In this document: piece by piece, positions 33,140 to 58,818 of the stretch
Layout of the letters: every line of letters begins with the position of its first letter
How positions within the stretch are numbered: position 1 is the stretch's first letter
NCBI GenBank assembly: GCA_024401275.1
Contig: JAKSLJ010000018.1
Location: 1 to 62,969 of the forward strand
Origin: Bacteroidaceae bacterium
GTDB lineage: Bacteria; Bacteroidota; Bacteroidia; Bacteroidales; Bacteroidaceae
Direction of reading: 5' to 3'
DNA: 62,969 nt
Translations under genes and position numbers: made by a program
Notes under the pieces: model-generated
What the model saw: the letters and a program-made list of their open reading frames with translations, nothing else
Databases searched by the model: none
Told to the model about the DNA's origin: nothing

Positions 33140-33171
33140 TTTGCCACATATTAATAATATTCGTATATTTG
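33140..33171 (+). promoter_or_regulatory. Promoter for cobalamin riboswitch 1
   Basis: TTTG (33140-33143) and TATATTTG (33164-33171) are separated by 20 bases, the best -33/-7 match in the window. Riboswitch RNA starts about ten bases later. Confidence 0.65.
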
Positions 33172-33180
33172 CACGCGTTT

Positions 33181-33440
33181 TTATAGTATCTCTCGCCACA
33201 TGGTATGGAAAGTAAACACTGCCTTGGCGCTGAGGTTCAAAAGGGAATCAGGTGAGAAACCTGGACAGTACCCGCTGCTGTGAGTCCTGAAAGTGGAGTT
33301 GCTTCCGCTTGAAAATCCGCAGTCAATACCACTGACCGAAAAGGTCGGGAAGGTGCTACGGAGAATGGGATAAGTCAGAAGACCTGCTATAAGAAAGAAG
33401 ATTTATCGCTTGCGGGACTACAAGCGCAGTAAGTTGACGA
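33181..33440 (+). ncRNA. Cobalamin (AdoCbl) riboswitch 1
   Basis: The conserved core GGGAATCAGGTGAGAAACC is followed by TACCCGCTGCTGTGAG and, further on, the B12 box AAGTCAGAAGACCTGCTAT (33373-33391). A GCTTGCGGG segment after the aptamer (33409-33417) can pair with the left arm of the terminator at 33480, giving a plausible anti-terminator. It controls the BtuB-like receptor gene and probably the two genes behind it. Ligand binding would shut transcription off. Confidence 0.93.
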
Positions 33441-33479
33441 TTAATGCCGACATTTATTTAACAACTTCTGATAATTGAA

Positions 33480-33517
33480 AATCCCGTTTGCGACCCGTTT
33501 CTCGCAAGCGGGATTAT
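33480..33517 (+). terminator. Riboswitch 1 expression-platform terminator
   Basis: Left arm 33480-33493 and right arm 33502-33515 pair over 14 positions with one G-T wobble (AATCCCG with CGGGATT, TTGCGA with TCGCAA). The T tract is weak (ATTTC). The BtuB-like start codon is 31 bases later. Confidence 0.7.
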
Positions 33518-33546
33518 TTCGTTAATGAAAAAATGAAGAAGTAAAA

Positions 33547-35514
33547 ATGAAAAGTGCTAAGCTTTGCATTCTGCTTATTGCAATAATTCTCCCTGCATTT
33601 GCATTTGCACAAGACGACGACCTGCACGATTCAATAGCATTGAAAGAGGTGCAAGTTCTCGCAAAAAGGCCACTTGCAACGGTGCAATCGCTCAAAGGCG
33701 AAGAGCTACAGGCACTTTCCTCTACCAGCGTTGCAGATGCACTGAAGTATTTTGCAGGCGTGCAGATAAAGGACTACGGCGGATTAGGAGGTCTGAAAAC
33801 CATTAACGTCCGCTCGCTCGGAGCACAGCATGTAGGCATATATATTGATGGCATTCGCGTTACAAACGCACAGAATGGAACGGTCGATCTGGGAAAATTC
33901 TCGCTTACCACTATGGAAAGCGTAGAGCTTTTCAATGCAAACAAACTCGATTATTGCCAATCGGCAAGCGAATACGCTTCGGGAGCAACAGTCTATCTGC
34001 GCACCCGTCGCCCTACAAGCGATTCCCTCTCTGTCCAAGTTCGCAATGCGTCCTTTGGCACTTATATGGCAAAGGTCAATGCACAGTTGGAACATAAAGG
34101 ATGGTCAGGTTTCGTTGATGCGGAATGGCTTACAACAAAAGGCGACTATCCTTTCCGTTATAAGTCGCAGTACGAGGACACTATAGGTCATCGCAAAAAC
34201 TCAGACATAGACTATTACCGCATTGAAGGAGCACTTTTCAAGGGCGGTTTCGCCTCACACATTTACTATTACGACTCCGAGCGAGGCTGCCCAGGAGGAA
34301 TTGTCCGTAGATTGTCCGACAAATACACGAATGTTGGACGCGAATGGGATCGCGATTTCTTCTACCAGATGTCATATCAATGGGAGTGGGGAAAGCATCG
34401 TTTCAAGGCTAACGGCAAGTACACAAGCGAGAATCTTCGTTACTGTACAGACTATCCTGAAAACCAGAATACGGCGAAAGTTGACAACCACTACCGCCAA
34501 AAAGACGGCTACGGTGCATTCTGCTATGCATGGACGCCATTGAAATGGCTGTCACTGAACACAAGTTACGACGTGCGTTACTCTCTCCTTCATGCTGACT
34601 TGAAATATTTTGACGCAGTCCATCGTCTTGACCAGAAGGAAGTAGTGTCTGCGCAATTAAACTGGAACGACATACAGCTTGCAGCATCAATGCTCCATCA
34701 GCACTATCATGATTTCACAAAAGTGCATACAGGAGCTGCCGATCCGCTCGACCGCTGGACACCGTCAATTACCCTCGGTTATACGCTCTACGGAGTTACA
34801 CTCAGGGCTTGGTACAAGAAAATATTCCGCGCACCAACACTCAATGACCTCTATTACACGCAGGTAGGCAACCGCAACCTTAAGCCGGAATACACCAAGC
34901 AGTTGAATATCGGAGTGGAGTGGAATCCTTCACTCAACTTAAGTGGTGGAAATCTCAATTTTCATTTCCAGGCAGATGTTTATCAAAACAAGGTTGAAGA
35001 CCGCATAGTCTGCTTGCCGCTGAAAGGCACCTACACATGGTCGATGATGAACTACGGTTACACCTTCTGCCAAGGTCTCAACGCAACGGGAAACATTCGC
35101 TATAAGATAAACAATTGGAATTTCTCGCTCCTAACATCACTCACATGGCAGCGCGACCTAAATCGCACAGATCCAGAGAACGAAGACACCTACAACAAGC
35201 CAATCTGCTACTCGCCTACCCTATCCTACGGCATAACAGGAATTGTCGGTTGGAAAGGCGTATCACTCACAGTTTCCGACCTTCATGTCAGCGAAAGAAT
35301 GTGGAGCTATGCAGACCCGGAAGACATTCTCAAGCCATACAATAACATTGACTTGAAGTTGACTGCACCGATTCCAGTGAAAATACTAGGTTCAAGAAAC
35401 AGACTCGGACTCTCTCTTGAAGTGAATGACCTTCTTGACGAACAGTACGAACACATTCCTCGCTACCCAATGCCTGGACGCAACTATAGACTGACTGCAA
35501 CATTCACTTTATAA
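33547..35514 (+). CDS. btuB: BtuB-like TonB-dependent cobalamin receptor
   Basis: A 655-residue outer-membrane receptor. Signal peptide MKSAKLCILLIAIILPAFAFAQ; TonB box region LKEVQVLAKRP; plug domain with ALKYFAGVQIKDYGG, LKTINVRSLGAQHVGIYIDG and VELFNANK; then a beta barrel ending in the aromatic NYRLTATFTL. The short length and plug match BtuB more than SusC-type receptors. The upstream cobalamin riboswitch and adjoining BtuG-like gene strongly support vitamin B12 or other corrinoid import. Energy would come from TonB. Confidence 0.92.
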   Translation: MKSAKLCILLIAIILPAFAFAQDDDLHDSIALKEVQVLAKRPLATVQSLKGEELQALSSTSVADALKYFAGVQIKDYGGLGGLKTINVRSLGAQHVGIYIDGIRVTNAQNGTVDLGKFSLTTMESVELFNANKLDYCQSASEYASGATVYLRTRRPTSDSLSVQVRNASFGTYMAKVNAQLEHKGWSGFVDAEWLTTKGDYPFRYKSQYEDTIGHRKNSDIDYYRIEGALFKGGFASHIYYYDSERGCPGGIVRRLSDKYTNVGREWDRDFFYQMSYQWEWGKHRFKANGKYTSENLRYCTDYPENQNTAKVDNHYRQKDGYGAFCYAWTPLKWLSLNTSYDVRYSLLHADLKYFDAVHRLDQKEVVSAQLNWNDIQLAASMLHQHYHDFTKVHTGAADPLDRWTPSITLGYTLYGVTLRAWYKKIFRAPTLNDLYYTQVGNRNLKPEYTKQLNIGVEWNPSLNLSGGNLNFHFQADVYQNKVEDRIVCLPLKGTYTWSMMNYGYTFCQGLNATGNIRYKINNWNFSLLTSLTWQRDLNRTDPENEDTYNKPICYSPTLSYGITGIVGWKGVSLTVSDLHVSERMWSYADPEDILKPYNNIDLKLTAPIPVKILGSRNRLGLSLEVNDLLDEQYEHIPRYPMPGRNYRLTATFTL

Positions 35515-35530
35515 TAAAACTCACGAATAA

Positions 35531-36781
35531 ATGAAAAAGATACTCATATCCATCATTGCTTTGACACTTGGTTGTCTTACCGCAGTATGCCAAGAGAAGA
35601 TTATTCTTCTCAATGAAGGCAACTGGCAGGCTGACAATGCAAAGATTACCTACTTTGAGAACGGTAAAATTGTAAGCAATCAGTGGTTCAGAGACAAGAA
35701 CGGCTACAAGATTGGCGATACACCTAATGACATCATTCAGATTAACGACAATCTCATAGCCATTGCCGTAAACTGGTCAAACATCATCCAGTTCATCACT
35801 CCGGAAGGCAAGGCTGTTGCTGCCACGGAAGATGTACCAAACAACCGCAGGCTCGCCTCTGACGGAGATTTCGTCTATGTTACCAGCTATGGTCATGAGT
35901 GTGGCATAAACGGCAGTTACAAGGAGTTCGAGAAAGGTTTTGTCGCAAAGATTGACTGCAAGACATTCAAGGTTGTTGATGCCGTTGAAGTTGGCTACGA
36001 ACCTGAAGGCATTGCACTTTACAAAGGCCATCTCTTCGTGGCAAACAGCGGTGGCTATGCTTTTCAGGAAGACCATGAATACGAAAGCACAGTGAATATC
36101 ATCGACTGCAAGACCATGAAAATAGTCAAGACCATTGACACTGGCTGCGTAAATCTCTATGGCGGCATGGCACAAAGCGGCAAATATCTGCTAATCAATT
36201 CTGCTGGCGATTACTACAATCAGGCAGGTTGCTCTGTGCTCATGGATTGCGAGAAAGCACTTAATGGTGAGAATTGTTTCAAGGTCCTTGATGTCGTTGC
36301 CACTCAAAGCACGACGAATCGCGAAGGACAGTTCCTCGTTGTAGGCTCTGATTATTCGTTCTTGATTGGTGGTTACGAACTCAGCTATTGCACAATCAAT
36401 CCAGAGGAAGCATACGCGAATGGCAGTGTGCAACAGTCATTTCCTGGCACAATTGCCGCAGACATCGAGAACATGAAATCACCTTATTCAATCTATGTAA
36501 ACCCTTACACAGGCTACATCTACGCCACAGATGCAAGCTCTTACGCTGACGGAGGCAAACTCTATCAGTGGTCGCCAGAAGGCGAACTCCTTGGCACTCA
36601 CAAGGTTTACATCAATCCGGGACATTTCCTTGCACTCCCACCTGACGGCCATTACACTGGCATTTCTACAATTCAGAATGCAGAATGCAGAATGCAGAAT
36701 TACAACATTGCCGGTCAGCGAGTTGGAAACGGTTACAAAGGAATCATTATCCAAGGCAACAAGAAGATTTTCAAGAAATAA
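35531..36781 (+). CDS. btuG: BtuG-like beta-propeller surface cobalamin-binding protein
   Basis: A 416-residue secreted protein, 16 bases after the receptor. After the signal peptide, NEGNWQADNAKITYF, GDTPNDIIQINDNLIAIAVN and YTGYIYATDASSYADGGKLY fit the DUF5074/YncE-like seven-bladed propeller. In Bacteroides the family member BtuG2 binds B12 very tightly and covers BtuB. There it is a lipoprotein; here no convincing lipobox is visible (only LTAVC) and the protein ends in YNIAGQRVGNGYKGIIIQG with a Lys-rich tail, a sorting-domain-like end. Just before that tail, GCAGAAT heptads are translated as NAECRMQN. It is therefore probably a surface protein exported by another route. Confidence 0.85.
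   Translation: MKKILISIIALTLGCLTAVCQEKIILLNEGNWQADNAKITYFENGKIVSNQWFRDKNGYKIGDTPNDIIQINDNLIAIAVNWSNIIQFITPEGKAVAATEDVPNNRRLASDGDFVYVTSYGHECGINGSYKEFEKGFVAKIDCKTFKVVDAVEVGYEPEGIALYKGHLFVANSGGYAFQEDHEYESTVNIIDCKTMKIVKTIDTGCVNLYGGMAQSGKYLLINSAGDYYNQAGCSVLMDCEKALNGENCFKVLDVVATQSTTNREGQFLVVGSDYSFLIGGYELSYCTINPEEAYANGSVQQSFPGTIAADIENMKSPYSIYVNPYTGYIYATDASSYADGGKLYQWSPEGELLGTHKVYINPGHFLALPPDGHYTGISTIQNAECRMQNYNIAGQRVGNGYKGIIIQGNKKIFKK
36674..36700. repeat. GCAGAAT heptad repeat inside the btuG-like gene
   Basis: About four tandem CAGAATG units in frame, encoding NAECRMQN between the propeller and the C-terminal tail. Confidence 0.85.
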
Positions 36782-36821
36782 CTCCCACTAAAAATAATCA
36801 ATAAAAATAACCCATAAAACA

Positions 36822-39800
36822 ATGAAAAGAATCAACACGCTAATGCTCATGATGCTCTTGTGCATCAGTAGCATGTTTGCAGCTCAGGTTACCGTGAAGA
36901 TGAACGCCACTTCACGCACCATGACGCTTGAGGACAAGGCTACAGGAGCTACGGTTTCCGTAGGCGACCCGACAAGTTATGCCTACACTTTCACAACAGA
37001 CGCTGGCACTTACCTTCTTACCAGCTATGCTAGCGACGGAACTACCGTCAACGGAACAATTGAAATAACAGTCACTGACGAAGCTGAGCAGACTTTCACT
37101 GTCCAGACTTGTACAGCCTTCGCCACAAACAAGAATGCCGACAATGCGGCATGGGAGTATGGCACTGACTACACGATTGATCTCGCTGTCTCAGGCAAAG
37201 ACGGAAGTTCTCGCGTCATTACTCTTGGCAATAGCACTACTGCTGGTCGCAAGACTTTCAATGTTCTCAATGGCGACAGCTACATTGCCTCTTTCGTCCC
37301 ATCTGCAGATCATGCCGCAGAAGGCTATCTACCTCTCGAAAAGACAGGTACCGTTACTGCAAACCCTACTATCAGCGGCGCTATTCCTATGGGCGCTGAC
37401 CTTGTAGTAACAGCACCTTCTGACGCTCAGTTCGTCTTGGCTACCAAGTCAACTCACTTTGTTGACTACAAGACCGTTGAGCCAAAGAGCGTTGCCGATG
37501 AAGGCGCAAACAAGGTTTACACTTACTACCTTGCCGACGCTCAGCAGTACAACTACCGCACTTGGAAAGAAGGTGGCGTAACAAATGCTGGTGTTATCAA
37601 AATGTATGCAGACGAGGCAAAGCGTCCTTCGCTAAACTTCACTTCTGATGATTACGCAACTATCAGTCCTTCATATATTGATCGCGATGTTACAAGCAAC
37701 AGCAAATACAATGTTGCAGACATCTTCGTGAACATCAACGAGCGCGGTCATCTCAAGCTCAATCAGGGCGACACTTTCGATGCCATGGCTTACCGTTCAT
37801 GGGAAGTCGTTGACGGCATCACATCAAACTATTTCGTTGAGCCTGACTATCATTACACCGTTCTCAACCTCAACGGCGAGAAGGACAACAGCGTCATCAC
37901 TGTAGAGCAAGGTCAGGCAGGCTCACACTGGGCTACACTCAACGCTGTTGGCAACGGTACTGCCATCGTGCTCGTAACCTATGACGCTCTCGTGGCAAAC
38001 CAGTACACAGATGCAACAAAGAAGGATATGACTGGCGGTCAAAACTGGAGTGCAATTTGGCCAGAGAACACAGCTGCTTACGTCGTAACCGTTGGTCAGC
38101 CTTCAACTGCAATCAAACCTAACATGACTGTCAATGCCGACAAGAACCCAACAAACCTCAAGCTTGCTGGCGACAATGTAGATGCCGAGTGCGACGTTTT
38201 CTATTACCTCAAGGGTGAGGCTGGCTATGAGTACACATTCACTCCTGAAGGCGTTGAAAAGGTTGAGGTAGCCTACCCTACTATCGGCGCTCAGATGGCA
38301 ACTTACAATGGCTTTGCCGCTGATGGCGTTACAAAGAATGAAGACGGCAGCTACACCGTTCTTCTTAAGCAGGGTCGTCAGATTGTAAAGCTTACTGACG
38401 CAAGCGGAAACAGCGAGTATCAGGTGCTGACAGCAAAGGAAGTTGAATACACAATCTCAAACCTCACAAACACTGAGAGCGAAACATTCGCTGCTGGCGA
38501 TAAGGTTGCCGTTTTGTTCAACACTCTCTATCACCCTGCAAACAAGCTTGCCGGTATCCATAATTTCAATGCAATCATTGAATACGGTAACCTTCCTGAA
38601 GGCGTCAAGGCTGTCAAAGGAAAAGCAAATCAGTATCAGTTTGCAGGCACCGAAACAGCTCAAACTTACACAATCACACTCCCAGCAGAGTGGGACGGCG
38701 AGAATCCTCTCACTATCAGTGGCGGTGCTCTTCGTCTTGGTGGTTTTGGAGACCCTATCGGCAACCATCGCGGAACTTCTCGCGCTAATGGTCGCAACGC
38801 AAACTTCACAGCCGTACAGAACACTTCTCTCCTTTGCGTTCTTCCTGAGATTGTCATCGAGAACGTACCAGCAACTCCAGCCGTAGCCGACTTCGAGGAC
38901 ATAGAAGTTGACGCTACAGGTATCTATCAGCCAGAAGACGAGGAAGACGAGACTTGCTACTGGAACTCTGGCGACTACACATTCTCTACTTACACTGACG
39001 ATTGGGGCACTAAGTACTACTACGACTTCACGGTTACAAACTCTACATCCGCTACATATTCAGGACTTGCCGACCAATACAACTCTGCTGCCGGTGACGC
39101 AAAGAGTGGTAGCAACTACGCTGTTTGGTATGACAACTTCTATGGCGGTGAGGGCATCTATATGCCTGATGCAATGAAGCCAACAGGTTTCTATGTTACA
39201 AACACAGCTTGGGTTGTTGATGCTATCCTCAAGGGCGACAAAATGTCTGTTGAGGAAGACGGAACAAAGGGTAAGCCTTTCGGCTACAACGGCAAGGAAG
39301 ACAAGCTCACACTCGTTGTAACAGGCTATGACGAAGAGATGGAAGAAACCGGTAAGGTGGAATATACTCTTGCTGAGGTTAAGGATGGCAAGCTTTACTA
39401 TGTCAAGGATTGGCGTTGGGTTGACCTCACTGCTCTTGGCGACAACGTTATCAATGTACAGTTCGCAATCAACTCAACAAAGGTTGGCGGTTACGGCGTA
39501 ACCACACCGACATACTTCTGTATGGACGACTTCGGTGGTGTAGCTCCTGAAACTGATGCGGAGATGGAGATGGTAGAACTCATCCCTGCTGCTCCAGTAG
39601 TAGCCGACTTCGAGGACATAGAAGTTGACGCAACAGGTATCTATCAGCCAGAAGACGAGGAAGACGAGACTTGCTACTGGAACTCTGGCGACTACACATT
39701 CTCTACTTACACTGACGATTGGGGCACTAAGTACTACTACGACTTCACGGTTACAAACTCTACATCCGCTACATATTCAGGACTTGCCGACCAATACAAC

Positions 39801-40445
39801 TCTGCTGCCGGTGACGCAAAGAGTGGTAGCAACTACGCTGTTTGGTATGACAACTTCTATGGCGGTGAGGGCATCTATATGCCTGATGCAATGAAGCCAA
39901 CAGGTTTCTATGTTACAAACACAGCTTGGGTTGTTGATGCTATCCTCAAGGGCGACAAAATGTCTGTTGAGGAAGACGGAACAAAGGGTAAGCCTTTCGG
40001 CTACAACGGCAAGGAAGACAAGCTCACACTCGTTGTAACAGGCTATGACGAAGAGATGGAAGAAACCGGTAAGGTGGAATATACTCTTGCTGAGGTTAAG
40101 GATGGCAAGCTTTACTATGTCAAGGATTGGCGTTGGGTTGACCTCACTGCTCTTGGCGACAACGTTATCAATGTACAGTTCGCAATCAACTCAACAAAGG
40201 TTGGCGGTTACGGCGTAACCACACCGACATACTTCTGTATGGACGACTTCGGTGGTGTAGCTCCTGAAACTGATGCGGAGATGGAGGTAGTTGAGATTAC
40301 CGACGATGATGATCCAGCCACAGCCATCAGATCTTTGGACAATGCAGAACGAATGCAAAGAATTTACAACCTCAACGGAGTTCGTGTAAACAAGAACTTC
40401 AAGGGTATCGTTATCAAGAACGGTAAGAAACTCATTAAGAAGTAA
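36822..40445 (+). CDS. Secreted protein with two near-identical DUF4465-like domains, probable corrinoid-binding (BtuH-type)
   Basis: A 1207-residue exported protein (signal MKRINTLMLMMLLCISSMFA). Residues about 22-680 hold beta-sandwich-like segments that I do not recognise. Residues 688-916 and 927-1155 are two copies of one domain: VADFEDIEVDATGIY, YWNSGDYTFS, GLADQYNSAAGD, GSNYAVWYDNFYGG, PTGFYVTNTAWVVDAI, KDWRWVDLTALGDNVINVQF, TPTYFCMDDFGG. This pattern fits the DUF4465 family, which as far as I recall includes the BtuH B12-binding proteins; I cannot verify this here. The tail YNLNGVRVNKNFKGIVIKNG and KKLIKK looks like a secretion sorting signal. It is the third gene of the riboswitch 1 transcript. 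A strong terminator follows. Confidence 0.85.
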   Translation: MKRINTLMLMMLLCISSMFAAQVTVKMNATSRTMTLEDKATGATVSVGDPTSYAYTFTTDAGTYLLTSYASDGTTVNGTIEITVTDEAEQTFTVQTCTAFATNKNADNAAWEYGTDYTIDLAVSGKDGSSRVITLGNSTTAGRKTFNVLNGDSYIASFVPSADHAAEGYLPLEKTGTVTANPTISGAIPMGADLVVTAPSDAQFVLATKSTHFVDYKTVEPKSVADEGANKVYTYYLADAQQYNYRTWKEGGVTNAGVIKMYADEAKRPSLNFTSDDYATISPSYIDRDVTSNSKYNVADIFVNINERGHLKLNQGDTFDAMAYRSWEVVDGITSNYFVEPDYHYTVLNLNGEKDNSVITVEQGQAGSHWATLNAVGNGTAIVLVTYDALVANQYTDATKKDMTGGQNWSAIWPENTAAYVVTVGQPSTAIKPNMTVNADKNPTNLKLAGDNVDAECDVFYYLKGEAGYEYTFTPEGVEKVEVAYPTIGAQMATYNGFAADGVTKNEDGSYTVLLKQGRQIVKLTDASGNSEYQVLTAKEVEYTISNLTNTESETFAAGDKVAVLFNTLYHPANKLAGIHNFNAIIEYGNLPEGVKAVKGKANQYQFAGTETAQTYTITLPAEWDGENPLTISGGALRLGGFGDPIGNHRGTSRANGRNANFTAVQNTSLLCVLPEIVIENVPATPAVADFEDIEVDATGIYQPEDEEDETCYWNSGDYTFSTYTDDWGTKYYYDFTVTNSTSATYSGLADQYNSAAGDAKSGSNYAVWYDNFYGGEGIYMPDAMKPTGFYVTNTAWVVDAILKGDKMSVEEDGTKGKPFGYNGKEDKLTLVVTGYDEEMEETGKVEYTLAEVKDGKLYYVKDWRWVDLTALGDNVINVQFAINSTKVGGYGVTTPTYFCMDDFGGVAPETDAEMEMVELIPAAPVVADFEDIEVDATGIYQPEDEEDETCYWNSGDYTFSTYTDDWGTKYYYDFTVTNSTSATYSGLADQYNSAAGDAKSGSNYAVWYDNFYGGEGIYMPDAMKPTGFYVTNTAWVVDAILKGDKMSVEEDGTKGKPFGYNGKEDKLTLVVTGYDEEMEETGKVEYTLAEVKDGKLYYVKDWRWVDLTALGDNVINVQFAINSTKVGGYGVTTPTYFCMDDFGGVAPETDAEMEVVEITDDDDPATAIRSLDNAERMQRIYNLNGVRVNKNFKGIVIKNGKKLIKK
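38883..39569 (+). repeat. Tandem domain repeat, copy 1 (687 bp)
   Basis: Matches 39600-40286 with an offset of 717 bases. By eye the only difference is one synonymous base (GCT versus GCA in the ATG codon triplet Asp-Ala-Thr-Gly), so both copies encode the same 229 residues. Confidence 0.93.
39600..40286 (+). repeat. Tandem domain repeat, copy 2 (687 bp)
   Basis: Second copy of the DUF4465-like domain DNA, joined to the first by a 30-base linker encoding MVELIPAAPV. Synonymous positions have not drifted, which implies recent duplication or ongoing gene conversion. Confidence 0.93.
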
Positions 40446-40487
40446 TAGGATATTAGTATATAAGTCTATCTTCCTTTTCTATTTAGA

Positions 40488-40523
40488 GGACATCCTGGAT
40501 TTTGGTTCAGGATGTCCTTTTTT
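40488..40523 (+). terminator. Terminator closing the riboswitch 1 operon
   Basis: GGACATCCTG (40488-40497) pairs with CAGGATGTCC (40508-40517), followed by six T residues. Confidence 0.8.
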
Positions 40524-40561
40524 GCAGTCAATTTTCTTATAAGAAAACGATATGAAACCCT

Positions 40562-40627
40562 AAGGATTACGATGTGTTTTCCTAAGGATTACGAGGCGTT
40601 TTCCAAAGGATTACGAGGCAGAACGCC
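40562..40627. repeat. 22-bp tandem repeat, three copies
   Basis: AAGGATTACGA starts at 40562, 40584 and 40606, an exact 22-base period; units continue GGCGTTTTCC or variants. The piece GAGGCGTTTTCC (40593-40604) also appears in the hairpin at 62770-62819. Confidence 0.8.
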
Positions 40628-40700
40628 AAGACTTTTTGAATCATTTCTTCTTCGTGATGACGCTACCAAGGCGTCGTTTCCGTTTGCAAGGAATTGAGCA

Positions 40701-40889
40701 ACAACTCTTCACCCTTCACCTTTTCCTTCTATCAAACTGACTATCAAACAGTTAGTATGGTGAAGAGTTGTCGGCAACCCTTCACCTACTCTTCACCTTA
40801 ATTAATATGAAGACACTCTTCACCCACCCTTCACCCCATAACACACTTATTATCAACATTATACAGCAAAAAAGTGAAGGGTGAAGAGT
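40701..40889. repeat. CTCTTCACC inverted/direct repeat cluster
   Basis: ACAACTCTTCACC (40701-40713) pairs with 40759-40771, and ACTCTTCACCCTTCAC (40704-40719) pairs with 40874-40889. Further direct copies of CTTCACC lie at about 40779-40835. Several alternative hairpins are possible. No gene is visible from 40446 to 41082; a short open frame at 40512 is made of repeats. Confidence 0.8.
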
Positions 40890-41064
40890 ATTTTTAATTC
40901 TATTGCGTTCTGCAAAAAAAAAAGGCGTGTAAGTCAGAAAATGACGAAGAATCTGTTTTATGTTTTACCACTATATTGGAGAAAAATCCTTGCATAAAGT
41001 CAAGAATACATACGATTAATCAAGAAAAATAGCATAATAGAATCCATATCAAAGAGAAAAATGG

Positions 41065-41072
41065 TAACTTTG
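41065..41072 (+). promoter_or_regulatory. -7 element for cobalamin riboswitch 2
   Basis: TAACTTTG, ten bases before the shared TTTTATAGTATCTCTCGC opening of the riboswitch. Confidence 0.6.
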
Positions 41073-41082
41073 CACACGCTTT

Positions 41083-41320
41083 TTATAGTATCTCTCGCTC
41101 CACTTGCGCTGAGATTTAAAAGGGAATCAGGTGAGAAACCTGGACAGTACCCGCTGCTGTGAATCCTGAAGGTGGAAGTAATAATCCACTGGAAATTCCG
41201 TAGTTTACGTCACTGGCTGAAAGGCTGGGAAGGCACGACGGAAGATAGGATAAGTCAGAAGACCTGCTATGGAAAGAAGATTTATCGCTTGCGGGACTAC
41301 AAGCAGAATAAGTTAAGGTT
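41083..41320 (+). ncRNA. Cobalamin riboswitch 2
   Basis: Near-parallel to riboswitch 1: same opening TTATAGTATCTCTCGC, GGGAATCAGGTGAGAAACC, TACCCGCTGCTGTGAA and B12 box AAGTCAGAAGACCTGCTAT. The peripheral stems differ (for example 41173-41230), so it is not a very recent copy. The segment GCTTGCGGG again can pair with the terminator's left arm. A further hairpin, TGTTCAAGGCAC with GTGCCTGAACA (41327-41352), lies between aptamer and terminator and is missing from copy 1. Confidence 0.93.
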
Positions 41321-41394
41321 TACTGTTCAAGGCACATCGTGCCTGAACATGCTTACATTATACTATCTGTAAACTTTATACATTATTTATATAT

Positions 41395-41432
41395 ATCCCG
41401 TTTGCGATGAATACTCGCAAACGGGATTTTTC
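41395..41432 (+). terminator. Riboswitch 2 expression-platform terminator
   Basis: ATCCCGTTTGCGA (41395-41407) and TCGCAAACGGGAT (41415-41427) pair perfectly, followed by TTTTTC. The start codon is at 41457. Confidence 0.8.
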
Positions 41433-41456
41433 ATTAAAAAAACATAATTAATAGTA

Positions 41457-44400
41457 ATGCGTTTACAGAACTTTTTTCTAACAAGACTTCTACTCCTGTT
41501 GCTCGCAGCAATACCTATTACTGCATTGGCAGACAGAGAGGTGAAGCAACCAGTCTTCGGAAAACAAGTCATAACAGTTGCCGATGACGAGGTAATCACG
41601 TTCGTCGATCCAAAGGGCGACACGGATTACACAGGACAGACTTCCGAGAACTGCCAGGGCATGACAGTCTTCAAACCTGCAGTTGAAGGCAAGTCCGTAC
41701 AGATTTCCTTCGAGTACATGAACATGGGCGGTAGCGGAAGCTATTATTCCGTAGCCAATGTTTACAACGGCAACCCTGATGCTGACAACTCATTCACATG
41801 GGCTACAAGCACATCTACCGTTCCTACAAGCTACAGCGCTTCAGTATTGCCTTCGGGCGACATTCTCCGCGCTTACCCTAACGAAAGAAACAAGACCTAC
41901 GAGAACGAGACCTACTTCTCTACAAGCAACGACGGCGTGCTCTCCGTAGGTTTCGCCTATCGCTATGCTTACTCATGCAAAGGTTGGAAAGCAACCGTGA
42001 AACTTGTCTCGCTTGACAACATGCAGACAAAGGGTGCTGCTGCAGACTACAGCACTGTTCCTACATCTGTAAAATCGAAGCAGAACGTAACCTTTGCTGG
42101 TGCTACCGTAACTACTGAGGGTGTGATGAACGCAGATGTGCTTAACGGCATCCGCATTCACATCAACAAGAATCAGGGAATGATTGACCCTGCTTCACTC
42201 GTGGTTTATGATGGTGGCAACAATGCTCTTGAAACCATCCCTAACGAAGAGGATGGAGACTATGTCCTCTATGTTGAGAAGACACTTGTAGAGGGTACTA
42301 ACACCTTTACCGTTCGTGGCGACATCCTTGGATCGGCAGAGATAGGTGCCGAGGTTGAGGTTGCCGTGACTGGCGTTATCACAACGGCATTCCCAGAGGG
42401 CGTCACTCCGTTCACTACAGGCGAGGCGAAGACCATCTCTAATCCTGCTCTCGTGCTGATGTCTTCTACTCCTCAGACTGTTACAGTAGGCGACACACCT
42501 CTCGCATTCTTCGACGAAGGTGGTGCTGACGGCAAAATCAAGCAGAACGTAAACGGAACAATCACTTTCGTTCCTGCCACTCCAGGCAAGAAGGTGATGA
42601 TTGACGTGACAAAGATGAACATCTGGCTCGGCTCATACTATGTTCAGGAATTCCGTGTTTACAACGGTACTGAGGTAAAGGCTGACAAGCTCATCAAGAC
42701 TCTCAACGACGGCGAGACAGGCATTATCCGTTCTACAAGCGAAGATGGTGCTCTCACCGTGAATCTTTTCAGCGACACATCTTCTACATATTACGAGAAC
42801 GACGGTTGGGAGGCAACAGTTTCGCAGTTCACTCCACAGGCTATGACCGTAGAGGAACTTGCCGTTGAAGCTGCTTCTGCTGCCACTTGCTCTGCTGGCG
42901 ACGATGCAGAAATGCTCAAGGTTACAATCCTGACAGAGAACACAGAACCTGCACTCGTGCCAAGTTCATTCTCTGTTGACTGCGGCGAGAACTACGCTCT
43001 CGTGTCAAAGGTAGCAATCTACAGCACTGGCACTTCAGGCACATACGCTGCAACAAAGAAGATTGGCGAGGCTGACGTTACTGCACAGAATGTAACAGTG
43101 AATGTCACTAATCCAGTTTCTCTCGTTGAGGACAACAACTACTTCTGGGTAACCTACACCCTCTCTACAACAGCAAAGAGCGGAAAGAAGGTTAGCGCGA
43201 AGCTTGCCAACGTGAAATTCACAAACGACGAAACAATCACTTACGACATTGCCACTGCCATTGAGCGTGAAATCAAGAACATTGCAATCGCAACAGAAGG
43301 CACAAAGACCATTATGGTTGACGGCACTTTCGGACTCCAGAGCGAGCAATATCCTACTAATGCAAACTACACAGCTCCAGGTACTACAGACCGCATCGTG
43401 GTCTTCAAGCCTGCTAACGAAGGAAATGTATGCGAGATTGAGTTCTCTAAGTTCGAAATCTATTATGCTTCTTCAAGCTATGGCACAAAGGCCAAGTTCC
43501 AGATCTATAGCGGCGAAGGCACAAAGGGTGAGAAACTCTTTGAAGTAACAGCTCCTACATCCGGTTCATACGACAAGGTTGGTCCTGGCGAGAAACTCCG
43601 TTCTACAAGTGCTGACGGCGCAATCACCGTGGTCTATAACCCTAACACATCTTCCTACTACTACTGTGGCGAAGGCTTCACTGCCAATGTTTCTGAATAC
43701 AAGACAAAGGCAATGGAGTATGAAGAGGCAACTGTTGCGCAGACTTCAAGCGATGTTGTAGCCGTTGGTGCAAAGAACCAGGCATTGCTCACGCTTAAAG
43801 TGAAGACTTCTGGCACAAACAATCCTCTCACTCTCTCAAAGGTAAACATTGATCTCAAGGATCTTCAGCAGAACATTGCAGCCATTAAGCTTTACGCTGT
43901 AGGCAAGACGGACGCTGATCCAGCTGCTGACGCTCCTCCAGTTGCAACAGCTACAGTTGGCGAGAATTCCGCTCTCACTCTTACTCTCGCAGAGCCTCTT
44001 GAGCTCAAGGAAGGCGACAACTACCTTCGTCTCACTGCCGACGTGGCAGAAGGTGCTGTTGCTGACGCAAAGGTTGACGCAAAGGTTCTTTCTCTCACAA
44101 TTGGTGGCGAAGAGAAGACTATCGAAGCTGGCGACCCTGACGGCGAGCGCACTGTGAAGTACATGTATCTTCTCCAGTCAGGCGACAATGGTGAGGTAAC
44201 TATCGGCGACAACACGATAATGTTCTATGACGATGGTGGTGCCGAGAAGGATGCTTCACGCAACTTCACTGGTCAGGTAACATTCGTGCCAAACGCTGCT
44301 GACAAGGCTATCAAGTTCGTCTTCAAGTCTTCTTCTTTCGGCAACTACTCTGACCACCTTTATATATATAATGGTGCAGAAGCAAAGACATCGGCAGATG

Positions 44401-47400
44401 TTGAGGTCGGCATGTACGATGCAGCACCAGAAATGTTCATCTCTGAGAGCGCAGACGGCAAACTGACTGTTAAGTTCACTACCGCTTCTTCTACTACATC
44501 TATCACCAACTTCGCCATCGAGGTTTCTGCTTACCAGAAGCAGTCTCTCGCAGTGGCAAGCATCACAACGGAAGACATCTCTGACGCAGAGACTCTCAAG
44601 GGTGCTCAGGATGTGAAGATGCAGAAGATTGCCATCGAGGCTGCTGGCGACATGAACGACATCAAGCTTTCTGCAGTAAATGTAAATGCTACCAACGCAG
44701 AAGCCATCAACAAGGTTAAGGTATATGCTACCGATACTTATAGCACATTCTCTACAACAAACCTCATTGGCGAGGCTGACGCTGCAGGAAACATTGCTGT
44801 TGACTACACTATCAGCAAGCGTGGCACTTACTATCTTTGGGTAACTTGCGACATTGCTTCTACAGCAACCGTAGGCAACAAGCCTTCTGCTTCCGTTACT
44901 GCAATCACAGCAAACGGCACAGACTTTACTGTTGCTGAGCCAAAGACTTCTACCATTGAGGTTGTCAGTGGCAAGAGCGGAACTATCGAGGTTGGTCCTG
45001 GTACTACATATCCTACTATCCAGAGCGCAATCAACTCTCTCGCCATCGGCGTAGAAGGCCCTGTAGTCCTCTCCGTTAAGAAGGGCAAGTACAACGAGCG
45101 TCTCATGATTCCTGCCATCAAGGGTGTTTCGGCCACAAATACCGTTACCATCCAGAGCGAGACAGGTCTTCGTGGCGACGTGGAAATCTATCATGATTCT
45201 TACACTTCTCCTGCATACGGTGAGACCGGTTATGGTGTAGTAACATTCGACAATGCGAACTACATCACTCTCAAGGATGTTACCGTAAAGACAGAGGATC
45301 CAAGTTATAAGGGCGTTGTCTATGTGCGCAATGCAAGCCGCCATATCACTATCGATGGATGTTATCTCACTGCTCCTATGACTACCCAGTACTCAGAGGG
45401 CGACATCAACATCATCGGTCATTATGTTGACAACTCAAAGGATGCTGACGGCAATTACCTCTGCAACAATAACAACGACTACCTCACCATCAAGAACAAC
45501 ATCATCGAAGGTGGCTACATCGGCATTAGCATGGGTGGTACAAGCTATGTTGCTCTGCCTAAGGAAGTCGGTGGTGTAATCGAAAACAACATCATCCGCG
45601 GCTGGGGTTCAAAGGGTATCTATGTAATGGAAGAACTTGGTGCCAAGGTTAACGGCAACAAGGTCTATAACGTGGAATACACAGCAAGCTCAGCTCTCGG
45701 TCTTGACATGCAGATTGGCGAGGACAACACTCTCCCTGTAGAGGTTAACCACAACACATTCTACATCGCAGCAAGCAACTCTGCAAGCGCAATGTCATTC
45801 CGCAAGCTCATTGGTACTGCCGAGAATCCTGTCAGTGTTGCTTACAATGAGATTCGCGTGGTATCAAAGTACTCTGCAAACTTCGGCGTGAAGTTCTCTA
45901 ATGCAAATGTGAAGAACGTGAACTTCGACCACAACTCTATCCGCGTAACAAACGCACAATCTCCTGTAAGCGATGGAGCTACTGGCCTCTGGTTCTCATC
46001 AACTCTCACTGACGGCGCTGCTGCCAATGTGAATGTTACAAACAACATCGTTGCAAACGAGGCTACAGGCTTCGCCGTAAACATCTACAACGATGGCAAT
46101 CTTGACGCTATCAAGTTCGCAAACAACACTCTCTACACTGCTGGCGCAACATTCGCTCGTGCTTCTTCTGGCACAACAATGGACTACGCAGCATGGACAA
46201 CAAAGACTGGCGAGACTGGTGGCGAGAACACTCTCGTAGCATTCAAGGACGAGTTCCGTCTCTTCCCTGCTGCTGAGGTTGGCGACCGCGGTTGCTTCCC
46301 TTACGATGCTACTCAGGCTGCAGCCACTCATGCTGAAGGCGATCCTGCATTCGACGAAGAAATGGGCGGTGGCGACATCACAGAGCCAACAAATCCAGAG
46401 CTCCTTGTAGATGCAGAATACGAACTCCCTCTCGGTGAAGAAGCATTGCTCTACGCAGTTCTCACGGAAGGTACCGCTCCTTACACTGTAACATGGAAGA
46501 ACGGCAAGAACACAGTCATCAAGACAGAAACTCTTGAAGCTCTCCCTGAAGACTTCGTGACTTGCACAATCACTCCACAGGAAAACATGGACTACACTGT
46601 AAGCGTTGTCGATGCTAACCTCAAGGAAGTTTCTGCAACTATCCGCGTCATCACGACAGGTGCTCTTGTCGTTGCAACATTCGAGAATCTATATCTCGGC
46701 AACGAGAGTGAATTCTCTGGCATTTACGAACTTGAGGACGAAGATGATTACTTCCGCGAAACAACATTCGTCAATGGTTCATACTCATTCTATCAAGGAA
46801 CATGGCCTGATTATGACTCTTGGTGGGGCATCGGTTATTCTAACCATACTTCTACCGACTACTCAAGCCTCGACGATCAGTTCAACAGCATTGTTGGTAC
46901 TGGCGTAAACGGTTCAGAGAAGTATGCTGTAGCTTACTACATGGAATACATGGGACCTGACTACGCGCCATCTGTAACCATTACAAACAAACCACAAGGC
47001 GACGTTGTTCCTGGTATGTATGTTACAAATACAGCTTACGCAGTAAACTCAATGGAGAATGGTGATGATGTGGCAAGCAAGTTCGGCTATGGCGACTGGT
47101 TCAAGCTCACTGCTACTGGTTATGATGCCAACGACGAGGAGACAAATTCTGTTGACTTCTACCTTGCAGACTTCCGCAGCGACAACGCTTCTGAGCGTTA
47201 CATCGTGAAGGATTGGCGCTATATGGATCTCTCTGTTCTCGGCACTGTGAAGAAGATCGTCTTCACAATGAGCAGTTCGGACAACAGCTCTTGGGGCATG
47301 AACACTCCAGCTTACTTCGCATTCGACAACTTCGGAGCACAGGCACCTGTTGACGTGAAGATTGGCAAGGGTGGTTACTCTACATTCGCTTCTGCATACA

Positions 47401-47900
47401 ACATGACTATTCCAGAAGGCGTTACAGCTTACTACGCTACTGCAGCAAACGACGTTTCTGTTCATCTTGAGAAGATTGAAGACGGCGTTATCCCTGCTGG
47501 CGAAGGTGTTGTGCTCAAGGGTACTGAAGGCGAGACTTACACATTCGTTCCGACTTCAGAAGAAGGTTCTGACCTGACAGGCAACCTCATGGTTGGTGTT
47601 CTTGATGCTGACAGCTATACTAACAACGGTCATCAGTATGTCATTGCAACAAAGAACAATGAAACTGCATTCTACCATTACACTGCAGATACATTCCCTG
47701 TTGGCAAGGCTTATCTCAATATGCCGACAACAAATGGCGCTAAGGTAAGCATCATCGTAAATGACGACGCTACAGGCATCAAGGGAATGCAGAATGCAGA
47801 AAGCGGAATGCAGAACATTTACAACCTCAACGGCGTTCGCGTAAACGAGAACTTCAAGGGAATCGTTATCAAGAACGGCAAGAAACTCATTAAGAAGTAA
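41457..47900 (+). CDS. Giant secreted mosaic protein under B12 control, with CUB-like, beta-helix and DUF4465-like domains
   Basis: A 2147-residue exported protein (signal about 1-25, ending ITALAD). Residues about 28-1165 alternate CUB-like modules (VTVGDTPLAFFDEGGADGKI; VTIGDNTIMFYDDGGAEKD) with beta modules that end in LVEDNNYFWVTYTLST-like lines; four rounds are visible. Residues about 1176-1615 look like a right-handed beta helix of the pectate-lyase type (GTTYPTIQSAINSLA, NYITLKDVTVKT, NNIIEGGYIGISMGG). An Ig-like stretch follows. Residues about 1739-1965 are a DUF4465-like domain (GMYVTNTAYAVNSM, VKDWRYMDLSVLGTV, MNTPAYFAFDNFGA). The tail IYNLNGVRVNENFKGIVIKN resembles the 1207-residue protein. 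Corrinoid capture is inferred from the riboswitch and domain. Confidence 0.85.
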   Translation: MRLQNFFLTRLLLLLLAAIPITALADREVKQPVFGKQVITVADDEVITFVDPKGDTDYTGQTSENCQGMTVFKPAVEGKSVQISFEYMNMGGSGSYYSVANVYNGNPDADNSFTWATSTSTVPTSYSASVLPSGDILRAYPNERNKTYENETYFSTSNDGVLSVGFAYRYAYSCKGWKATVKLVSLDNMQTKGAAADYSTVPTSVKSKQNVTFAGATVTTEGVMNADVLNGIRIHINKNQGMIDPASLVVYDGGNNALETIPNEEDGDYVLYVEKTLVEGTNTFTVRGDILGSAEIGAEVEVAVTGVITTAFPEGVTPFTTGEAKTISNPALVLMSSTPQTVTVGDTPLAFFDEGGADGKIKQNVNGTITFVPATPGKKVMIDVTKMNIWLGSYYVQEFRVYNGTEVKADKLIKTLNDGETGIIRSTSEDGALTVNLFSDTSSTYYENDGWEATVSQFTPQAMTVEELAVEAASAATCSAGDDAEMLKVTILTENTEPALVPSSFSVDCGENYALVSKVAIYSTGTSGTYAATKKIGEADVTAQNVTVNVTNPVSLVEDNNYFWVTYTLSTTAKSGKKVSAKLANVKFTNDETITYDIATAIEREIKNIAIATEGTKTIMVDGTFGLQSEQYPTNANYTAPGTTDRIVVFKPANEGNVCEIEFSKFEIYYASSSYGTKAKFQIYSGEGTKGEKLFEVTAPTSGSYDKVGPGEKLRSTSADGAITVVYNPNTSSYYYCGEGFTANVSEYKTKAMEYEEATVAQTSSDVVAVGAKNQALLTLKVKTSGTNNPLTLSKVNIDLKDLQQNIAAIKLYAVGKTDADPAADAPPVATATVGENSALTLTLAEPLELKEGDNYLRLTADVAEGAVADAKVDAKVLSLTIGGEEKTIEAGDPDGERTVKYMYLLQSGDNGEVTIGDNTIMFYDDGGAEKDASRNFTGQVTFVPNAADKAIKFVFKSSSFGNYSDHLYIYNGAEAKTSADVEVGMYDAAPEMFISESADGKLTVKFTTASSTTSITNFAIEVSAYQKQSLAVASITTEDISDAETLKGAQDVKMQKIAIEAAGDMNDIKLSAVNVNATNAEAINKVKVYATDTYSTFSTTNLIGEADAAGNIAVDYTISKRGTYYLWVTCDIASTATVGNKPSASVTAITANGTDFTVAEPKTSTIEVVSGKSGTIEVGPGTTYPTIQSAINSLAIGVEGPVVLSVKKGKYNERLMIPAIKGVSATNTVTIQSETGLRGDVEIYHDSYTSPAYGETGYGVVTFDNANYITLKDVTVKTEDPSYKGVVYVRNASRHITIDGCYLTAPMTTQYSEGDINIIGHYVDNSKDADGNYLCNNNNDYLTIKNNIIEGGYIGISMGGTSYVALPKEVGGVIENNIIRGWGSKGIYVMEELGAKVNGNKVYNVEYTASSALGLDMQIGEDNTLPVEVNHNTFYIAASNSASAMSFRKLIGTAENPVSVAYNEIRVVSKYSANFGVKFSNANVKNVNFDHNSIRVTNAQSPVSDGATGLWFSSTLTDGAAANVNVTNNIVANEATGFAVNIYNDGNLDAIKFANNTLYTAGATFARASSGTTMDYAAWTTKTGETGGENTLVAFKDEFRLFPAAEVGDRGCFPYDATQAAATHAEGDPAFDEEMGGGDITEPTNPELLVDAEYELPLGEEALLYAVLTEGTAPYTVTWKNGKNTVIKTETLEALPEDFVTCTITPQENMDYTVSVVDANLKEVSATIRVITTGALVVATFENLYLGNESEFSGIYELEDEDDYFRETTFVNGSYSFYQGTWPDYDSWWGIGYSNHTSTDYSSLDDQFNSIVGTGVNGSEKYAVAYYMEYMGPDYAPSVTITNKPQGDVVPGMYVTNTAYAVNSMENGDDVASKFGYGDWFKLTATGYDANDEETNSVDFYLADFRSDNASERYIVKDWRYMDLSVLGTVKKIVFTMSSSDNSSWGMNTPAYFAFDNFGAQAPVDVKIGKGGYSTFASAYNMTIPEGVTAYYATAANDVSVHLEKIEDGVIPAGEGVVLKGTEGETYTFVPTSEEGSDLTGNLMVGVLDADSYTNNGHQYVIATKNNETAFYHYTADTFPVGKAYLNMPTTNGAKVSIIVNDDATGIKGMQNAESGMQNIYNLNGVRVNENFKGIVIKNGKKLIKK
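47785..47815. repeat. GCAGAAT heptads inside the giant gene
   Basis: In-frame GAATGCAGAATGCAGAAAGC and a further GAATGCAGAA encode the MQNAESGMQN linker just before the sorting-like tail. Confidence 0.75.
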
Positions 47901-47914
47901 AGACCCTACCCAAA

Positions 47915-47935
47915 CCCTCCCCACATGGGGGAGGG
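47915..47935. repeat. CCCTCCCC/GGGGAGGG palindrome
   Basis: CCCTCCCC-ACATG-GGGGAGGG hairpin 14 bases after the giant gene. A degenerate relative (CCCTCCTCTACAAGGGAAGG) lies before the phospholipase gene at about 55454-55473. Confidence 0.6.
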
Positions 47936-47954
47936 CTTCAAAAACAAAAATAAA

Positions 47955-48119
47955 ATGAAAAGAACATACATAAAACCAGAATCGGCTCTGATTGATCTGA
48001 CAGACGAACCTATTCTTATAGGAGAGTCAATGGATGTAGAAGATGGAGACATAAACGATCCAATCGAGGTTCAGAGCAAGCAAGTTGGCTTCATCTTTGA
48101 AGATGATGACGCTGACTAA
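47955..48119 (+). CDS. 54-residue acidic peptide
   Basis: The ATG at 47955 opens MKRTYIKPESALIDLTDEPI and the protein ends in FIFEDDDAD. The start MK(R/K)TYI.P is shared by many tiny Bacteroidetes proteins of unknown role found next to surface-protein genes. It has no signal peptide or membrane segment and is strongly acidic (many Asp and Glu). An upstream ATG at 47925 would overlap the palindrome and is less likely. It sits 54 bases after the giant gene and before a terminator, so it is likely transcribed with it under riboswitch 2. Function unknown. Confidence 0.6.
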   Translation: MKRTYIKPESALIDLTDEPILIGESMDVEDGDINDPIEVQSKQVGFIFEDDDAD

Positions 48120-48193
48120 ATACAAAAAGAAAAAAGTTGTTGTTAAATATTTCAAACATTCTCTTGCAAACAAAAAAGAGTATTTTGATTTCC

Positions 48194-48231
48194 AAAGCCA
48201 CAGTCGATGTGAATCGGTTGTGGCTTTTTTA
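48194..48231 (+). terminator. Terminator closing the riboswitch 2 operon
   Basis: AAAGCCACA (48194-48202) pairs with TGTGGCTTT (48219-48227), inner CGAT/ATCG, followed by a six-T run. Confidence 0.8.
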
Positions 48232-58708: not shown

Positions 58709-58731
58709 CACCGACAAACAAACAGTTTGTT

Positions 58732-58818
<87 letters not shown>

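Follow-up and report, generated by a model that had tools for sequence, protein, structure and literature searches.

The locus at positions 33193-48227 (+ strand) of the DNA analysed here, a stretch of 62,969 nt from a gut-type Bacteroidaceae bacterium allied to Prevotella, which we call the window and take at its full length, very probably encodes a cobamide-capture system whose surface binders are cargo of the type IX secretion system (T9SS) instead of lipoproteins. It consists of two transcription units. The first runs from a cobalamin riboswitch and a hairpin through a btuB-like gene and a btuG-like gene to the gene of a long arm protein; the second contains another cobalamin riboswitch and hairpin, a giant gene, a gene for a small acidic peptide and a terminator-like hairpin. 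An earlier note on this DNA had proposed a type IX-exported B12-capture machine with very large arms, and the computational evidence supports that proposal: alongside the gene order, the riboswitches and the domain matches, we observe sorting-like tails on the binders, genes for SprA, PorV and PorU, co-occurrence of the tails with PorU, mutual exclusion of lipobox and tail, and a conserved locus of riboswitch, BtuB, BtuG and arm in which the tailed BtuG proteins form a clade of their own. All features of the window described below lie on the + strand.

The tails fit the short type of C-terminal domain (CTD) of the T9SS. By tail profile and motif comparison, the BtuG-like protein ends in 40 residues after ..YT/GI (36659..36778), the arm protein in 40 residues after ..AT/AI (40323..40442) and the giant protein in 41 residues after ..AT/GI (47775..47897). 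In Prevotella intermedia, 48 short CTDs have been predicted and the cleavage sites of five of their proteins measured; they share a consensus PT/GI, a motif B that contains Tyr and Gly, motifs D and E ending in a basic residue, and a length of 40-51 residues (PMC11969387). The window's tails have the same traits, with motifs B, D and E at the extreme C-terminus behind a T/GI-type site. By a loose pattern such a site lies 40-44 residues from the end in 22 of 27 tails of the same genome, the window's three included, and a profile built from 25 of the genome's own tails has 52 matches there, three of which are the window's binders. At the other end, all three proteins have leaders of the signal peptidase I (SPI) type and no lipobox, as judged by pattern and by comparison with relatives, a loosely matching Cys15 in the BtuG-like leader being discounted. 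The replacement of the lipobox by sorting-like tails in three capture proteins, which the earlier note had read from the sequence, is thereby borne out. That CTD-bearing surface proteins can depend on this machinery is known from Paraprevotella clara, in which trypsin recruitment by such proteins requires PorU (PMC9477747).

The window's own genome encodes PorU (C15:10624-13701), with PorV adjoining on the same contig and SprA on contig C2. Across a family set of 101 genomes, each scored for the tail profile and for PorU, 59 have both, 10 have PorU only, 3 have the tail only and 29 have neither; the tail thus occurs in 59/69 genomes with PorU and in 3/32 without it (Fisher p 1.2e-13, kinship ignored). 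From these genomes, frames were fetched around each of the 52 DUF4465 matches and around some of those to BtuG. For DUF4465, 49 frames were obtained, of which a truncated duplicate and another truncated at the start were set aside; 34 of the 47 usable frames have a lipobox and no CTD, ending 3-11 residues past the domain, and 13 have a CTD (12 called by pattern, one by eye) and no lipobox. The 47 BtuG frames, from 43 genomes, divide into 38 lipoproteins without a CTD (32 by pattern, 6 by eye) and 9 proteins taken as non-lipidated and ending in a CTD; seven of these passed the pattern at once, and two, the window's included, were first flagged as lipoproteins by the loose pattern. Lipobox and CTD are thus mutually exclusive among the fetched BtuG and DUF4465 proteins. 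All nine CTD-BtuG and all 13 CTD-DUF4465 proteins come from genomes with PorU, and genomes lacking it hold 14 BtuG and 16 DUF4465 lipoproteins and no CTD form. A quick tree with 74 rows (47 of the family set and 27 of 80 further loci) shows CTD-BtuG as one clade with support 100. The DUF4465 tree (87 rows) requires 10 changes of anchor, at least five of them by starred branches, with all domains of the further loci labelled CTD unchecked, among them the L245 giant, which ends in a dockerin-like repeat, and three cut proteins (the L181 giant, L209 and L233). As far as such a tree can tell, the exchange of lipobox and CTD in DUF4465 proteins seems to have happened more than once.

The 80 further loci were kept from 168 relatives in a scan of named genomes; they come mostly from metagenome-assembled genomes (MAGs) titled Prevotella, Prevotellaceae, Bacteroidaceae, Muribaculaceae or Bacteroidales, and also from named records such as Palleniella intestinalis, and at least three (L220, L221, L232) are probably the same records as contigs of the family set. 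BtuB is present in 77/80, and a riboswitch stands just 5' of it in 70 of the 72 loci with enough upstream DNA. PorU exceeds its cut-off in 48 of the 50 genomes behind the first 50 loci, and in 49/50 at E<=0.001. A QE[KR]II-like start follows the leader in every one of the 81 BtuG-like frames; at the C-terminal end, the CTD pattern covers 77, a CTD is recognised by eye in three others and one (L222) has a dockerin-like repeat. By pattern, none of the 53 DUF4465 frames contains a lipobox; among the 48 complete ones, 45 close, by eye, in a CTD. Where the CTD is replaced, in the BtuG-like protein of L222, the arm proteins of L192 and L227 and the giant of L245, its place is taken by NGD...V.D repeats, which we take to be dockerin-like.

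The receptor gene (33547..35514) encodes a TonB-dependent protein of 655 residues whose best solved relative is BtuB1 (8blw_A), which aligns to residues 15-651 with E 9.5e-73; the NCBIfam equivalog TIGR01779 scores 91.1 bits against it, with a model cut-off of 599.7 bits. The next gene (35531..36781) encodes a propeller of 416 residues with an SPI-type leader and without an N-terminal linker. Its 12 PDB matches are all YncE or 'surface layer' chains, BtuB-BtuG entries among them, the best at E 3.8e-18. Both the BtuB-like receptor and the BtuG-like propeller claimed beforehand are present. The propeller shows sequence kinship with BtuG and its gene adjoins btuB under a cobalamin riboswitch; a lipidated Cys and a linker are missing, and therefore we file it as a member of a non-lipidated sister clade, not as a BtuG lipoprotein. 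BtuG2 sits as a lid on BtuB2 and is held there by the lipidated Cys32 and by a linker lying along loops of BtuB2, which is proposed as a possible hinge (PMC10404256). In nine of nine CTD-BtuG proteins, the predicted mature N-terminus lies 7 residues ahead of the conserved NEG motif; in BtuG lipoproteins, the distance is 20-38 residues in 24 of the 25 measured, with a single value of 10 (13 further ones are unmeasured, as the script's NEG or Cys pattern failed). Judged from these N-termini, the tether of CTD-BtuG must have shifted to the C-terminus, or the protein would be a lid without any tether.

It is barely credible that the BtuG-like protein is still a lipoprotein, anchored through Cys15 of its leader (TLGC), and that the tails are functionless remnants. 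The loose lipobox pattern does flag this Cys, but the hydrophobic stretch of the leader extends past it. The leaders of relatives disagree as well: most end in ..A/QE[KR]II, and in 67/81 not even the loose pattern finds a lipobox-like Cys. No N-terminal linker is kept, and the two DUF4465 proteins of the window are called SPI, not lipobox. Cys15 was set aside as a lipidation site.

The remaining two binders are very large. The arm protein (36822..40445; 1207 residues) consists of an immunoglobulin-like (Ig-like) module, two DUF4465 heads and the CTD, and the giant protein (41457..47900; 2147 residues) of BNR_assoc_N repeats, a middle of 500 residues without an assigned domain, one DUF4465 domain (46809..47333, with a GMNTPAYF loop) and the CTD. 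The PF14717 profile exceeds its cut-off in both, as expected from the earlier note, and the three domains are the only ones found in this 91%-complete genome. The two copies in the arm gene (38916..39569 and 39633..40286) are identical over 654 bp, which we read as a very recent duplication or conversion, though an effect of assembly is conceivable. The note had set these proteins beside BtuH, and here a correction is due: the DUF4465 proteins of Bacteroides thetaiotaomicron are BtuJ1 and BtuJ2, both lipoproteins, and BtuH is a separate family, so the window's proteins are BtuJ-like. Unlike BtuJ1 and BtuJ2, they are both called SPI and have no lipobox. Eight DUF4465 members are reported to bind B12, and tyrosines of their HI and DE loops to be conserved; the same source mentions signal peptides, and members elsewhere need not be lipoproteins (PMC13398666). 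The HI-loop tyrosine is kept in all three domains of the window (TTPTYF, TTPTYF and NTPAYF). A giant protein with 92-98% identity to the window's in six of nine tested segments, and 57%, 87% and 73% in the others, occurs in a MAG from horse faeces (L174) whose BtuG is only 61% identical; its gene may be a mosaic or have been transferred.

The heads of the arm sit on a module of 682 residues that we call P3N (36876..38921; residues 19-700 of the protein), which shares 40-61% identity with the remaining 50 rows in its alignment. This copy has no Pfam match, and 11/51 members match PF21461 weakly. AlphaFold2 predicts an almost entirely beta structure of beta-sandwich or Ig-like domains (pLDDT 89.9); the structures that it matches, with modest scores, are mainly Ig-like arrays in unrelated proteins. 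BtuH is absent among the listed fold matches, and the single PDB sequence match at E<=1 is an antibody chain (E 0.51). For the last P3N domain (pLDDT 81.9; 24 invariant columns in 49 rows) the structure search gave no clear match. P3N occurs as 71 frames in 70/80 related loci, and the pattern finds no lipobox in any of these frames. The 63 complete P3N proteins carry no DUF4465 head in 26 cases, one in 17, two in 15, three in 4 and four in 1. The predicted arm thus looks like an Ig-like array bearing DUF4465 heads. Could such proteins be general T9SS adhesins in which DUF4465 occurs by chance, with no role in B12 capture? P3N matches no B12 protein in these searches, its structural matches are common Ig-like arrays, and the 26 headless proteins would suit such a role; however, a riboswitch precedes BtuB in nearly all testable loci, P3N stands next to BtuG in seven of every eight, the giant gene has a cobalamin riboswitch of its own, and DUF4465 members do bind B12 (PMC13398666). 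We therefore consider general adhesins very unlikely.

Several observations weigh against B12 capture by type IX cargo. Ten genomes with PorU lack a match to the tail model, and three without PorU have one. Two of these three (G066 and G100) are incomplete, and PorU is found in other members of their genus; the assembly of the third, G074, is 99% complete, so that incompleteness is no excuse there. Since CTD-BtuG is one clade, its nine-for-nine coincidence with PorU represents few independent events (p 0.04). The CTD pattern also matches 90 of 724 arbitrary ends of open reading frames, and therefore the argument rests on the length and position of the tails jointly; in the relatives, the BtuG tails are less regular, with a T/GI-like site in 45/81 against 268/1000 arbitrary ends. 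At E<=0.1, the Por-tail models of NCBIfam and Pfam had no match in the window's three proteins. A lipobox-like Cys is found by the loose pattern in 14/81 BtuG leaders of relatives, one of them strict (L191), and the complete DUF4465 proteins of L192, L227 and L245 end in a dockerin-like repeat without a CTD. Finally, the DE helix of the window's domains reads TAWVV (arm) and TAYAV (giant) in alignments against the tyrosine-rich TTYDY of BtuJ1, and their B12 site may be partly different. As for G074, its tail belongs to a single protein of ~450 residues with an SPI-like leader and a CTD (G074:C12:72164-72241, locus L153), which is perhaps an orphan cargo.

How the binders would be exported, cut and anchored, that they bind B12, and in which order they pass it on are inferences, which run as follows. 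When B12 is scarce, the two riboswitches would permit transcription of both units. BtuB would insert into the outer membrane, and the BtuG-like propeller, the two-headed arm and the giant protein would cross the inner membrane by Sec with their SPI leaders. The short CTDs would then direct the three binders through SprA, PorV would collect them, and PorU would cut just ahead of the G/A-I in the T/GI or T/AI site; the new C-terminus would be joined to surface polysaccharide. Held off the surface by Ig-like arms, the DUF4465 heads would catch B12, and the arm would feed the BtuG-like protein, which would pass the vitamin on to BtuB. The genome encodes MetH, and therefore a use for B12 is at hand.

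We speculate, with a little less than even confidence, that Prevotella-type bacteria have shifted the hinge of the B12 lid: a lid without N-terminal lipid and linker would be tied covalently by its C-terminus to lipopolysaccharide through PorU, and long Ig-like arms with 0-4 DUF4465 heads, standing out past the membrane, would together fish for B12 as a multivalent layer and deliver it to BtuG and BtuB. The cargo might instead be released, as soluble B12 scavengers or on vesicles, with which BtuJ is associated in B. thetaiotaomicron. BtuJ proteins are enriched in vesicles of that species (PMC12751083) and outer-membrane vesicles of T9SS bacteria are enriched in cargo (PMC11969387); a shed lid, however, would risk losing B12 to neighbours, and we consider release unlikely, if worth keeping in mind.

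The control elements of this capture system agree in part with what had been claimed for them. Both riboswitches, at 33193..33405 (5' of btuB) and 41069..41285, match the full covariance model RF00174, with 82.8 and 100.4 bits, far over the gathering score of 31.5. Each is followed by a strong hairpin that is a likely terminator: 14 pairs at 33480..33515, in the gap before btuB (-22.9 kcal/mol, fold z -6.0), and 13 pairs at 41395..41427 (-21.1 kcal/mol, z -6.3), with a stem largely common to the two. The earlier claim of two cobalamin riboswitches with terminators thus stands for the riboswitches and the hairpins, and less well for the first terminator, as the T-run is good behind hairpin 2 only and poor behind hairpin 1. 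The scan for terminator-like sites also gave the hairpin that closes the second unit (48194..48227); as a class, such sites are not over-represented in the region (17 observed, 14.1 expected). Just ahead of that hairpin lies the small acidic peptide noted before, as an open reading frame of the K.Y..P type at 47925..48119. Small acidic peptides starting with K.Y..P follow T9SS cargo genes more widely: the pattern finds them behind 3/27 cargo genes of the same genome, with the window's own peptide, which it misses, as an additional case, and they are located downstream of L010, L021 and L024 and at L216, L217 and L244. Elsewhere in the genome, a third cobalamin riboswitch (G000:C47:12758-13009) precedes a frame, truncated where the contig stops, that by eye resembles a TonB receptor, and the same contig carries a second PorV-family gene (C47:62-940). 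The window also contains a thiamine pyrophosphate riboswitch (58723-58818).

In the BtuG-like protein the linker of the CTD contains an array of CAGAATG heptamers (36674..36700), part of a dispersed element in which such heptamers and their inverse are arranged as imperfect palindromes at several places in the genome. A 20-base array of it has 46 matches in 27 places of this genome and none in 60 other genomes of the family. The element also lies in frame, as five arrays, inside metH (G000:C7:3352-7404, L251; 1379 residues), and by eye heptamer-type peptides occur in the linker of about a dozen of the 27 CTD tails of the genome. A second, partial metH match (G000:C1:103998-104894; positions 3-323, one stop) lies on a contig that also has heptamer arrays. 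The element recalls the coding palindromic elements of Rickettsia. In L175, L188, L203, L214 and L221, the stretch directly ahead of motif B is often repeat-like (QTSNFKPQTSN, QLTIDNSQLTI), as though insertions were tolerated there.

We know of no transporter partner for the trypsin-recruiting proteins 00502 and 00509 of P. clara, which invite comparison with the present binders. That species is likewise a gut commensal with a T9SS, 00502 has Ig-like domains and a CTD, and function is lost without PorU; their ligand is a protein, whereas here it would be a vitamin (PMC9477747). The short-CTD cargo of P. intermedia has in common with the window's proteins the SPI leader, motifs B, D and E and a T/GI-type site 40-41 residues from the end; the proteins described here are putative B12 proteins under cobalamin riboswitches, and their cleavage is predicted from sequence (PMC11969387). 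Closest in content is the BtuB-BtuG lid complex of B. thetaiotaomicron with its accessory BtuH, BtuJ and BtuK lipoproteins, in which riboswitch control, BtuB, BtuG and a DUF4465 binder (BtuJ) likewise come together in one locus. In contrast to that complex, a T9SS CTD at the C-terminus takes the place of a lipobox in the window's BtuG and DUF4465 proteins, DUF4465 is carried on proteins of 1207 and 2147 residues, and BtuG is without the N-terminal linker described as following BtuB2 (PMC10404256).

For the uptake of nutrients by gut Bacteroidota, the BtuB-BtuG lid serves as a model. A natural clade that retains receptor and lid, without the linker and with a sorting signal at the opposite end, makes the role of the lipid hinge directly testable. 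The analysis also points out a strongly conserved, unannotated module, P3N, next to BtuG, and short CTDs that the Pfam and NCBIfam models left unflagged. More broadly, it suggests that bacteria of gut and rumen may use type IX secretion to capture micronutrients.

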